This document shows, piece by piece, positions 55,024 to 58,267 of a DNA stretch of 64,000 bases. Source of the stretch: Bradyrhizobium diazoefficiens (lineage in GTDB: Bacteria; Pseudomonadota; Alphaproteobacteria; Rhizobiales; Xanthobacteraceae); contig NZ_CP067101.1 of NCBI RefSeq assembly GCF_016616425.1, forward strand, positions 6,936,001 to 7,000,000, read 5' to 3'. The position numbers and the translations under genes are program-made. A model generated the notes under the pieces. That model did not search any database and was not told the DNA's origin. It saw only the letters and a program-made list of their open reading frames with translations. Each line of letters begins with the position of its first letter. Within the stretch, counting starts at the first letter, position 1.

Positions 55024-55160
55024 GGCTTGGCTCCTGACTTGCCTCCTCGTCGCATGCCCCAATTGCGAGCTCGAGCCAAATCTAGGCTTGGAAATAGTTG
55101 CGATCCACCCGGTTTCCGGGAATCTTGCACAGGAGTTCCGCCTGCCTCGCGAGCCCCAGA

Positions 55161-55979
55161 ATGCAAAGCCTCCACGTCAACGGATCTGACATGGCCTATC
55201 TCGACGTTGGCGAAGACAGGAGCCGACCGCCGCTGGTCTGCGTGCACGGCTCGCTCAACGACTTCCGTGTCTGGGGCTGCGTGCTCGGGCCGCTGACGCA
55301 GCGGCACCGGCTGATCGCTGTCAGCTTGCGGCACTTCTTCCCGGCCCGGTGGGACGGCGTTGGCGACACCTATTCGATCGCCCAGCATGTCGACGACGTC
55401 ATCGCCTTCATCGAGAAGCTCGACCTCGGTCCGGTCGACCTGATGGGCCATTCCCGCGGCGGGCACATCTGCTTTCGGGTGGCTCAGCGGCGGCCGGATC
55501 TGTTGCGGCGGCTGATCTTAGCCGAGCCCGGGGGCGAGCTCGATGCGAGCCTCGATCCTGACTATGTCGGCGGGCCCTCGCCGCTGCTGGCGCGCTTCAC
55601 GGCTTCGGCCGAGAAGATCGCGGCCGGCGATGTCGACGGCGGCCTCGCCGTCTTCGTCGACACGCTGGAAGGCGCCGGCACTTGGCCGCGGCTGCCGGCC
55701 ATGGTGAAGCAGAATTTGCGCGATAACGCCACTACGCTGATCGGCCAGGTGCGCGACAATCGTCCGCCGTTCTCGAAGGCGGATGCGGAGCAGATCAGGA
55801 TGCCGACGCTGTTCATCCTGGGCGCGCGGACCAAGGGCCTGCTGCAAAAAGTGCTGCACGCGCTCGCCGCGCATGTGCCCTACGCCAAGACGGCGATCAT
55901 CCCGAACGCGACGCATCCGATGTTCGAGCAGGCGCCGCAGAAATTCTCCGAAGTGGTTCTCGATTTCCTGGCGAGCTGA
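55161..55979 (+). CDS. Alpha/beta hydrolase (tandem paralogue 1)
   Basis: A 272-residue hydrolase. Oxyanion-side motif PLVCVHGSLNDFRVW, the nucleophile elbow GHSRGG (LMGHSRGGHICFRVA) and a late His (IIPNATHPMFEQAP) complete a Ser-acid-His triad. The sequence is near-identical in layout to the next gene, two bases downstream. Substrate unknown. Confidence 0.9.
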   Translation: MQSLHVNGSDMAYLDVGEDRSRPPLVCVHGSLNDFRVWGCVLGPLTQRHRLIAVSLRHFFPARWDGVGDTYSIAQHVDDVIAFIEKLDLGPVDLMGHSRGGHICFRVAQRRPDLLRRLILAEPGGELDASLDPDYVGGPSPLLARFTASAEKIAAGDVDGGLAVFVDTLEGAGTWPRLPAMVKQNLRDNATTLIGQVRDNRPPFSKADAEQIRMPTLFILGARTKGLLQKVLHALAAHVPYAKTAIIPNATHPMFEQAPQKFSEVVLDFLAS

Positions 55980-55981
55980 TC

Positions 55982-56794
55982 ATGCAGACATTTCGCGTCA
56001 ACGGTTACGACATGGCGTATCTCGAGGTCGGAGACGGCCCGCCGCTGGTCTGTGTGCACGGCACGCTCGGGGATTTCCGCACATGGTATTCGGTGCTCGG
56101 TCCGCTCTCAAAGTCCCATCGGGTGATCTCGGTCAGCTTGCGGCACTTCTTCCCCGAGCATTGGGACGCCGTCGGCAACGACTACAAGATGGCGCAGCAT
56201 GTTGCCGACGTGATCGCGTTCATCGAGCAGGTGAGGCCTGCACCCGTCGACCTGATGGGCCATTCGCGCGGCGGCCATATTGCATTTCGAGTCGCGCAGG
56301 CACGGCCTGATCTCCTGCGCAAGCTGGTGCTGGCCGAGCCGGGCGGCGATCTCGATGCGTTCCTGCCGGTGCCGCAAGGCACGCCCAGCCATCCGCCACT
56401 GGCGGCGCGGACGGCGCGCTCGGTCGAGATGATCCGCGCCGGCGATATCGAGGGCGCGCTGCGGAATTTCTACGAGGGAATTGAAGGCGACGGCGCCTGG
56501 CGGCGCGTGCCGGCGGCGGCCAAGCAGCAGCTGCGCGACAACGCGCTGACGTTTCTCGGCCAGGTCGACGAGCAGCGCCGGCCCTACACGCACGCGGACG
56601 CGCAGGCGATCAGGACCCCGACGCTGCTGATCGGCGGCGGCGCCACCACCGGCAGCCTGGCGGTGATGTGGCGCGTGCTCGCCGAGCACATCGCGGGCGC
56701 GAGGACGGCGCTGATCCCGAACGCCGGCCACTGGATGTTCGAGCAGGCGCCGCTGGAGTTCGCCGACGCCGTGAGCAGGTTTCTGGCGGAGTAG
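55982..56794 (+). CDS. Alpha/beta hydrolase (tandem paralogue 2)
   Basis: A 270-residue hydrolase with PLVCVHGTLGDFRTW, LMGHSRGGHIAFRVA and LIPNAGHWMFEQAP, matching the upstream gene position by position. Starting two bases after its twin's stop, it is certainly in the same transcript. The middle lid region (residues about 130-190) differs most between the two, so they may have different substrates. Confidence 0.9.
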   Translation: MQTFRVNGYDMAYLEVGDGPPLVCVHGTLGDFRTWYSVLGPLSKSHRVISVSLRHFFPEHWDAVGNDYKMAQHVADVIAFIEQVRPAPVDLMGHSRGGHIAFRVAQARPDLLRKLVLAEPGGDLDAFLPVPQGTPSHPPLAARTARSVEMIRAGDIEGALRNFYEGIEGDGAWRRVPAAAKQQLRDNALTFLGQVDEQRRPYTHADAQAIRTPTLLIGGGATTGSLAVMWRVLAEHIAGARTALIPNAGHWMFEQAPLEFADAVSRFLAE

Positions 56795-56842: not shown

Positions 56843-57298
56843 TCACACCTTCCACACGCCGACCGGCATCTTGATCGTTGCGTTCAACCGGTTCCAGACG
56901 TTGATGGTCGCGATCGAAAGAATCAGCGTTGCGAGCTCGCGCTCGTCGAAATGCTTGTCGGCCTCGCTCCAGATCGCATCCGGCACTGGGTCCTCGCGAT
57001 CGGCGAGCCGCGTGACGGCCTCGGTCAGCGCCAGCGCAGCGCGCTCGGCGTCGGTGAAATAGGGCGCATCGCGCCAGGCGGACACGGCGAACAGGCGCTC
57101 ATCGGTCTCACCCAGCTTGCGGGCGATCTTGGGATGCATATCGACACAGACGCTGCAACCGTTGATCTGGCTGGCGCGCAGATGCACCAGTTCCAGGAGC
57201 TTTTCCGGCAGGCCCTGCTTGGTCAGATTGCCGAGGGACTGCAGGACATTCATGGCCTCGGGAAGGACCATAACGGGGTGATTCATGCGGGCGTGCAT
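56843..57298 (-). CDS. Carboxymuconolactone decarboxylase/AhpD-family protein
   Basis: A 151-residue AhpD-like protein. The redox-active motif is C48SVC51 followed by His55 (NGCSVCVDMH), with LLELVHLRASQI before it and LATLILSIATINVWNRLNA after it. Proteins of this type have peroxidase or disulfide-exchange activity. GGAG precedes ATG 57298; an ATG at 57313 is an alternative. It is divergent from an ECF sigma gene, the known genetic pairing of ECF41 sigma factors with CMD proteins. Confidence 0.9.
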   Translation of the reverse strand: MHARMNHPVMVLPEAMNVLQSLGNLTKQGLPEKLLELVHLRASQINGCSVCVDMHPKIARKLGETDERLFAVSAWRDAPYFTDAERAALALTEAVTRLADREDPVPDAIWSEADKHFDERELATLILSIATINVWNRLNATIKMPVGVWKV

Positions 57299-57334
57299 CT
57301 TTTTCGTCTCCATCGCTCGAATTTCGAAGGTTCC

Positions 57335-57361
57335 GGTCACATCGGCCGGATTGGCTTCGTC
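57335..57361 (+). promoter_or_regulatory. ECF41-like promoter driving the ECF sigma gene
   Basis: GGTCACA at 57335-57341, a 16-bp spacer, and CGTC at 57358-57361, about 37 bp before the sigma start codon. It differs at one base from the TGTCACA-N16-CGTC pattern reported for ECF41 targets. Confidence 0.7.
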
Positions 57362-57369
57362 ATGGGCAT

Positions 57370-57396
57370 GACGGATCGCGACGAGGGAATGTGACC
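57370..57396 (-). promoter_or_regulatory. ECF41-like promoter driving the CMD-family gene
   Basis: On the minus strand GGTCACA (57396-57390), 16 bp, CGTC (57373-57370). It is the mirror image of the promoter at 57335-57361 and points to the CMD-family gene, whose start is about 72 bp downstream. Between the two -10 boxes is ATGGGCAT, making CGTCATG/CATGACG symmetric. Confidence 0.7.
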
Positions 57397-57397
57397 G

Positions 57398-58267
57398 ATG
57401 ACCGAAAAAAACTTTGACGAGGATTTTCTCAGCCACCAATTCGAGGCCAGCAGGGATCATTTGCGCGCGGTCGCCTACCGAATGCTGGGATCCCGCGCTG
57501 AGGTCGACGATGCCGTGCAGGAGGCCTGGCTGCGGGTCAGCCGCTACGACATGTCCGATGTCGCTAATCTGCGCGGCTGGTTGACGACCGTGGTCGCGCG
57601 CATCTGTCTCGACATGCTGCGCGCACGGAAGTCGCGCAAGGAAGATCCGATGGGCCCGCACGTGCCCGAACCCGTCGACGAGACGCCGGAGCGCGAGGCG
57701 GAGATGGCTGACTCCGTCGGCGCCGCGCTGCTGGTCGTGCTGGAAACGCTGCAGCCTGCGGAGCGGCTCGCCTTCGTGCTGCACGACATGTTCGCAGTCC
57801 CCTTCGAGGAAATCGCACCGATCGTCGGCCGCTCGGTCGAGGCGTCGCGGCAACTCGCGAGCCGGGCGCGGCGGCGCGTGCAGGGAGCGCCGGTGCCGGA
57901 GACGGATCTGTCGCGCCAGCGCGGAATCGTCGATGCCTTCCTCAAGGCGTCGCGCGAAGGCAATTTCGAGGGCTTGCTCGCCGTGCTCGATCCCGACGTC
58001 GTATTCCGCGCCGACCAGGCCGCGGTGCGGCTCGGTACGCTGCCGGAGATCCGCGGCGCGGATGCGGTTGCGCAGCTCTACAAGGGCCGCGCCCGAGCCG
58101 CGCGGACGGCGCTGGTCGACGGTGAGATCGGCGTCGCCGTCATCCTCGGCGGACAGCTGCGCATCGCACTGCGGGTGACGTTCAATGGCGATCGTATTGC
58201 CGGGATCGAGGCGCTGGCCGATGCGGAACGGATCGCCACGCTGGACGTGGAAGTGCTGGAGGGCTGA
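57398..58267 (+). CDS. ECF sigma factor with C-terminal SnoaL-like domain (SigJ/ECF41-like)
   Basis: A 289-residue sigma factor. Region 2 (HLRAVAYRMLGSRAEVDDAV, SDVANLRGWLTTVVARICLD) and region 4 (LQPAERLAFVLHDMFAVPFE, IVGRSVEASRQLASRARRRV) are followed by a SnoaL-like domain (residues about 180-289; AFLKASREGNFEGLLAVLDP). In ECF41 proteins this extension replaces an anti-sigma factor. The DGGGK motif typical of ECF41 is not seen, so it may be a sister group. GAGGG precedes the ATG. Confidence 0.9.
   Translation: MTEKNFDEDFLSHQFEASRDHLRAVAYRMLGSRAEVDDAVQEAWLRVSRYDMSDVANLRGWLTTVVARICLDMLRARKSRKEDPMGPHVPEPVDETPEREAEMADSVGAALLVVLETLQPAERLAFVLHDMFAVPFEEIAPIVGRSVEASRQLASRARRRVQGAPVPETDLSRQRGIVDAFLKASREGNFEGLLAVLDPDVVFRADQAAVRLGTLPEIRGADAVAQLYKGRARAARTALVDGEIGVAVILGGQLRIALRVTFNGDRIAGIEALADAERIATLDVEVLEG

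Follow-up and report, generated by a model that had tools for sequence, protein, structure and literature searches.

A 62-bp element at positions 57335-57396 of a 64,000-nucleotide stretch of Bradyrhizobium diazoefficiens DNA (the whole of which is called the window below) consists of two ECF41-type promoters, one on each strand, with their -10 boxes facing each other across 8 bp. It most probably serves as a bidirectional promoter for a single ECF sigma factor (we put the probability at about 0.8), holoenzyme bound in one orientation or the other giving the mRNA either of the sigma gene or of a divergent CMD gene. The sequences compared show both promoters, the gene that each one faces, spacing that is conserved, and a link between the reverse promoter and a divergent enzyme gene; that the window sigma reads both promoters is what we infer from them. 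Along the plus strand the order is GGTCACA-N16-CGTC, ATGGGCAT, GACG-N16-TGTGACC, and both promoters agree with TGTCACA-N16-CGTC except for a G in place of the first T. The first-pass annotation had this geometry exactly, with GGTCACA-N16-CGTC on both strands and CGTCATG-GG-CATGACG at 57358-57373. The features of the locus are as follows.

56843-57298, minus strand: CMD/AhpD-core protein with a CxxC motif (Pfam CMD, 73.9 bits; TIGR00778, 59.7 bits).
57335-57341, plus strand: -35 box GGTCACA of the sigma-gene promoter, by sequence match (published consensus TGTCACA).
57358-57361, plus strand: -10 box CGTC of the sigma-gene promoter, by sequence match and column counts.
57361, minus strand: predicted +1 (G) of the CMD transcript, placed within about 1 nt by the same 9-nt rule and the same analogy as the +1 at 57370.
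57362-57369, unstranded: centre ATGGGCAT, the 8 bp between the -10 boxes, by sequence and column counts.
57370, plus strand: predicted +1 (G) of the sigma transcript, placed to within about 1 nt at the 9th nt after CGTC, which is the first base of the opposite GACG, by analogy with Sinorhizobium meliloti.
57370-57373, minus strand (read 57373-57370): -10 box CGTC of the CMD-gene promoter, by sequence match and column counts.
57383-57389, plus strand: Shine-Dalgarno-like GAGGGAA of the sigma gene, inside the spacer of the reverse promoter, seen as a purine-rich run in the column counts.
57390-57396, minus strand (read 57396-57390): GGTCACA as -35 box for the CMD gene, flanked by the sigma gene's Shine-Dalgarno sequence on one side and its start codon on the other.
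57398-58267, plus strand: ECF sigma factor of 289 aa, SigJ/ECF41-like, with regions 2 and 4 and a SnoaL-like C-terminal part.

Perfect GGTCACA-N16-CGTC is found in the window at these two places only. Single promoters with up to two mismatches are at background level there (23 against 21.6 expected); the fused 62-mer, with up to three mismatches allowed, was found once in the window and in none of 100 shuffles, and the fused element is not a chance occurrence. Its two 16-nt spacers have no mirror symmetry to each other. Genome-wide, GGTCACA-N15..17-CGTC has 11 perfect matches, the window pair included, against 7 for the reversed control pattern, and perfect TGTCACA-type single sites number 2 against 2 in the control; these perfect matches are paired only at the window element. 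A wider regulon was considered and rejected, since the perfect single sites are at control level.

In the sigma protein, Pfam recognizes Sigma70_r2 (51.5 bits) and r4_2 (35.0 bits), both above cut-off; the SnoaL part is weak (SnoaL_2, 22.9 bits, below the cut-off of 27), and the NCBIfam SigJ model reaches 235.8 bits along residues 12-281, below its cut-off of 271. Several of the features that define ECF41 are present: regions 2 and 4 followed by a SnoaL-like C-terminal extension of about 100 aa, an adjacent gene of the CMD, oxidoreductase or epimerase type (here the divergent CMD gene), and the target promoter TGTCACA-N16-CGTC, found on both strands with G for the first T. Conserved letters of the C-terminal ECF41 motifs are DGGGR and NPDKV; the window sigma has neither DGGGK nor NPDKL, both of which are present in S. 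meliloti RpoE9. The ECF41 group has been described as having three such conserved C-terminal motifs and, between regions 2 and 4, a linker with WLPEP (PMC3426412). WLPEP is absent from the linker of the window sigma, which reads GPHVPEP, and from all 14 sigma proteins aligned here; the RpoE9 linker reads WLPDP. As it lacks WLPEP, DGGGK and NPDKL, the protein has been named ECF41-like rather than filed as an ECF41 member. It is 39% identical to RpoE9 over 218 aa, and at E <= 1e-15 it is the sole match of its kind in its genome.

The CMD gene more likely starts at 57298 (M-H-A-R-M) than at the in-frame ATG at 57313, which is also possible; homologues begin M-x-x-R-M, and 57298 is preceded at a distance of 9 nt by GGAG (57311-57308). 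Two tandem alpha/beta hydrolase-type ORFs, the second called by Pfam and the first by resemblance, occupy 55098-56794 and are convergent with the CMD gene. The upstream ORF of the window locus has homologues in 13 other loci.

Genomes of the same family were searched with GTCACA-N15..17-CGTC-N6..12-GACG-N16-TGTGAC, the reversed pattern serving as control. Matches were found in 29 of 296 genomes, including 16 of 27 in the same genus (the window genome among them), and the control gave none; 11 of the 26 other sampled genomes of the genus are without a perfect match to the pattern. When the centre was left free between 0 and 30, the phylum gave matches in 10 of 398 genomes and the order in 14 of 397, again with no control matches; these two sets overlap each other and the family set, and together they add six loci in six genomes (L040-L045). 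All of the resulting 35 loci, in 35 genomes including that of the window, have 16-nt spacers and an 8-bp centre. A sigma homologue of 55-100% identity lies on one side in 35 of 35, and a divergent CMD homologue on the other in 33; in L036 its place is taken by a VOC-type ORF, and L034 yielded no divergent gene. Of the conservation that had been proposed as a check on the element, that of both boxes and the 16-nt spacers is thus seen in the related loci (the 29 family genomes and the six more), as is a constant length of the centre. The sigma start codon lies exactly 2 nt past TGTGAC in 32 of the 35 (31 ATG and one GTG); in the remaining three the distance is 1 or 3 nt. Since the reverse -35 box sits between the sigma start codon and its Shine-Dalgarno sequence, translation of the sigma factor and transcription on the CMD side would draw on the same stretch.

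Column counts were made on 42 non-redundant centre-8 elements, mostly from loci found with the patterns, which largely fix GTCACA; that the GTCACA of the forward -35 box is present in 42 of 42 thus largely reflects the search. Its first base is T in 35, G in 4 and C in 3, and the first base of the reverse -35 box is G in 31 of 42. This first base thus differs between the sides, being mostly T on the sigma side and mostly G on the enzyme side, which could bias the direction of transcription. The A directly after CGTC (42 of 42) and the T directly before GACG (40 of 42), neither of which is set by the patterns, are nearly invariant, and the inner part of the centre is variable. The central palindrome claimed by the first-pass annotation is therefore present in the window, but the CATG-GG-CATG symmetry is mostly local, with only those two flanking bases kept throughout.

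Loci were also picked by sigma similarity, with 14 aligned sigma proteins as query, each of them from a locus that carries the element; named genomes were scanned, and the best 80 of 577 confirmed loci were taken. Promoters in them were scored with up to one mismatch in the -35 box and the -10 box as NGTC. Of these best 80 of 577, 37 have a face-to-face pair (35 with a centre of 8 and two with a centre of 9), 35 have the forward promoter only, 4 the reverse only and 4 neither. The 37 fused loci come from Bradyrhizobium, Rhizobium, Phyllobacterium, Mesorhizobium, several actinobacterial genera, three Chloroflexota MAGs and Dictyobacter; at least two of them (L114 and L123) have a 17-nt forward spacer. 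In 600-bp windows at the best 80 of 577 loci there are 51 plus/minus pairs in all. Besides the 35 at centre 8 and the two at centre 9, eight one-mismatch pairs lie at -46 to -48, which fits the near self-complementarity of TGTCACA; one perfect pair lies at -74 (L069), and single one-mismatch pairs are scattered at 21 (L091), 31, 162, 196 and -163. The control regions of the same best 80 of 577 loci (far-upstream, sigma-coding and downstream) gave one pair each and 20 base shuffles a mean of 0.65; the sigma-coding region also has 25 unpaired minus-strand matches.

L069 appears to carry a second, partly decayed fused element about 80 bp upstream of the intact one, with the reverse half and both -10 boxes present and the forward -35 box unrecognizable. 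Remnants of a reverse half are found in the forward-only loci L061, L062 and L072; in L062 the -35 box is intact and the -10 box lost, and in L072 the opposite holds. L092 and L112 are reverse-only with no partner identified, and their forward promoter has apparently decayed.

A second search covered the phylum of the Rhodococcus locus L071, with the -10 box relaxed to NGTC and the centre free between 0 and 30. It matched 14 places in 12 of 346 genomes, that of L071 included, with no control matches; a sigma homologue is present in 13 of the 14 loci, the exception being the short locus L140. The centre is 8 at three of the 14 places, 9 at eight and 11 at three. An absolutely fixed 8-bp spacing, which holds in the family and order of the window, has thus been rejected for this phylum; the spacing is not rigid there, yet it stays within 8-11. 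In L071 and L074, both from Rhodococcus, the divergent partner appears to be L,D-transpeptidase-like rather than a redox enzyme (YkuD plus Big_10 in L071; by tblastn in L074), and the -10 boxes are the variants GGTC and TGTC.

Partner genes at the best 80 of 577 loci were called by tblastn with fixed seeds (best hit with E <= 1e-5, lying no more than 450 bp upstream of the sigma start or 750-1400 bp downstream of it); calls made with an iterated HMM were set aside, being seemingly contaminated by ORFs antisense to the sigma gene, and the promoter classes were kept. An adjacent divergent CMD gene was found in 26 of the 37 fused loci and in 0 of the 43 others (best 80 of 577; Fisher p ~1e-12, uncorrected for kinship). 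Together with the conserved boxes, spacers and centre of related loci, this bears out the earlier assignment of each promoter to one of the two divergent genes. If VOC (3), YkuD (2) and SDR (1) genes are added, a divergent partner is present in 32 of the 37 (best 80 of 577), though only the CMD count is a fair test, because the VOC, SDR and YkuD seeds came from fused loci. In some loci, then, the CMD gene is replaced by a VOC, SDR/epimerase or YkuD gene with the element retained; Pfam identifies the divergent gene of L121 as an epimerase, and two reverse-only loci, L095 and L100, have divergent SDR genes. Among the other fused loci, the upstream gene is co-directional in L034, L068, L105 and L127, with no divergent gene found; the divergent gene of L129 encodes an ABC transporter, the sequence upstream in L078 is too short, and Pfam recognized no family for the neighbour in L108 and L130. 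In the four loci with a co-directional neighbour, the reverse promoter could make RNA antisense to the upstream gene. Nine of the 35 forward-only loci were scanned: six have unrelated divergent neighbours (HAD, NUDIX, GH16, glycerate kinase, LysR and SpoIIE), two have co-directional ones (FtsX and RF-1), and one has a neighbour without a family. In L110, a forward-only locus, a CMD homologue lies 1.2 kb upstream, on the far side of the glycerate kinase gene.

A quick tree of the 80 sigma proteins (best 80 of 577) was built without bootstrap, and its root is unsure because the outgroup, RpoE9, is on a very long branch. On it the 'fused or reverse-only' state changes at least 14 times and the divergent-gene state 9 times. 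The well-supported branches give three independent pairs, none of which opposes the link (best 80 of 577; median sign-test p 0.25). The link between the reverse promoter and a divergent gene is strong by count and is not significant once kinship has been removed.

For the positions of the transcript starts, the best guide is S. meliloti, in which TGTCACA-N16-CGTC lies 9 nt upstream of the mapped SMb20029-rpoE9 start (PMC3616915). The RpoE9 promoter sequence printed in Table 1 of PMC6180224 also ends nine bases after CGTC, in G; this last printed base has been taken as the start, another row of that table ending in the lower-case start letter of the legend. PMC3426412 reports a G start in two organisms, where the leaders are 22/23 nt long according to the text and 31/32 according to its Table 5, a difference that makes the offset unreadable from that source. 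If the 9-nt rule holds here, each predicted +1 would be the G that pairs with the last C of the other CGTC, and the sigma and CMD starts would be about 9 bp apart with the transcripts diverging; by the same rule a centre of 11 would give a start distance of 6.

The first-pass annotation had the two transcripts overlapping by tens of bases, with antisense pairing or collision of polymerases between them. The boxes do face each other, and read-through from farther upstream could yield RNAs across both arms. However, the two transcripts would overlap only if transcription began fewer than 5 nt beyond the -10 box, and the mapped distance of about 9 nt (PMC3616915) points to diverging starts and no primary overlap. 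With starts near 57370 on the plus strand and 57361 on the minus strand, antisense pairing and head-on collision are not expected, and competition for one binding place is; that the two transcripts pair or block each other we consider highly improbable.

We favour instead a bidirectional promoter at which RNA polymerase with the SnoaL-fused, ECF41-like sigma would bind the same ~60 bp in either orientation. In one orientation it would transcribe the sigma gene itself, a positive autoregulation, and in the other the divergent CMD/AhpD-like redox gene. Judging from their overlap, the melted regions and polymerase footprints of the two orientations would nearly coincide, and binding would therefore be mutually exclusive; each bound holoenzyme would give either sigma or enzyme mRNA, coupling the two outputs and restraining self-activation. 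Given the predicted starts, such exclusion seems a likelier form of interference than transcript overlap. At sigma-70 bidirectional promoters of E. coli, competition is seen at high activity and is small at low basal activity (PMC12825309), so exclusion may matter mainly when the sigma is active. A stronger version of this reading, which we hold only tentatively and at somewhat less than even odds, is that the element is a dedicated one-site, two-orientation switch at the only paired site of this sigma in the genome, whose output restrains self-activation and whose interlock (centre 8-11 bp) has been selected across Pseudomonadota, Actinomycetota and Chloroflexota while the enzyme gene was swapped.

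The low-activity behaviour of the E. coli promoters (PMC12825309) would also suit a simpler view, in which two independent divergent promoters overlap by chance and their close spacing is inherited without a function of its own. Descent alone could explain why no centre other than 8 occurs in the Hyphomicrobiales-type genomes sampled (the window's own family and order), and the fused state is clustered on the sigma tree (best 80 of 577). Each -35 box, moreover, lies in the leader of the other gene, and since the one on the sigma side is wedged between the Shine-Dalgarno sequence and the start codon, indels are limited already. Against this, the length of the element is constant while its distance from the CMD start codon ranges from 22 to 88 nt (in 27 of the 33 CMD loci, those with a start listed); the spacers have diverged, any two of the 42 elements being different at 14 or more of 86 positions; pattern scans with a centre of 0-30 gave only 8, 9 and 11; and the only perfect pair with another geometry, that at -74 in L069, involves the second, partly decayed copy (best 80 of 577). 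Chance overlap and inheritance without function thus seem to us rather unlikely. Far less probable is that the inverted repeat, instead of being a pair of promoters, binds a dimeric repressor or activator as its operator. GGTCACA and TGTGACC are indeed inverted repeats, but these arms are 48 bp apart with asymmetric spacers between them, the forward half stands alone before the sigma gene in 35 loci (best 80 of 577), and each half matches the experimentally defined sigma promoter with its 16-nt spacer (PMC3426412).

Much of what makes up the bidirectional promoter has precedents. The published ECF41 motif is TGTCACA-N16-CGTC, and its partner genes encode CMD, oxidoreductase or epimerase proteins (PMC3426412); of 55 sigma genes in divergent ECF41 loci 36 carry the motif, as do 41 of the 55 partner genes (Table 4 of Wecke et al., 2012, PMC3426412). 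The motif, the types of partner gene and the frequent presence of the motif before both divergent genes are thus the same as here, but that paper is not known to describe the two motifs as one overlapping element or to give the spacing between them, and neither 'palindrom' nor 'bidirection' appears in its main text. Bidirectional promoters for sigma-70 have divergent starts 7-25 bp apart, with -10 and +1 reciprocally overlapping, and opposed polymerases cannot bind them at once (PMC12825309, PMC10268837). The start distance of about 9 bp predicted here would fall within that range; theirs, however, commonly have one shared, near-symmetric TATAAT (PMC12825309, PMC10268837), whereas here two separate CGTC boxes are interlocked via the predicted starts, both have a full -35 box, and the sigma factor's own gene is one of the two outputs. 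HrpL-hrpJ of Pseudomonas syringae likewise has an ECF sigma gene divergent from its target, and there holoenzyme at the target promoter affects transcription of the sigma gene; hrpL, however, is sigma-54-transcribed and repressed, and the pair are not two promoters for the same sigma (PMC5263251). S. meliloti RpoE9/SMb20029 likewise has a CMD target and the same motif, with the start about 9 nt past it (PMC6180224, PMC3616915), but there a single promoter precedes the CMD and sigma genes, which form one operon, and the centre contains no reverse box. In one open-access library, the titles and abstract openings of the matches listed include no report of an interlocked bidirectional promoter for an ECF sigma. 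The motif, the partner genes, the motif on both divergent genes (PMC3426412) and bidirectional sigma-70 promoters are already known, and the interlocked ECF-sigma form seems to be a further kind of bidirectional promoter.

The near-symmetric -10 box of sigma-70 eases the formation of bidirectional promoters; here an ECF sigma with an asymmetric -10 box shows that layout, made up of two full promoters. It occurs in several phyla, and the regulator's own gene is one output. The locus would thus offer a natural system for asking whether competition of polymerases for one site sets the ratio of regulator to target and damps positive feedback, for which the loci where the reverse half is patchily absent would provide ready controls.
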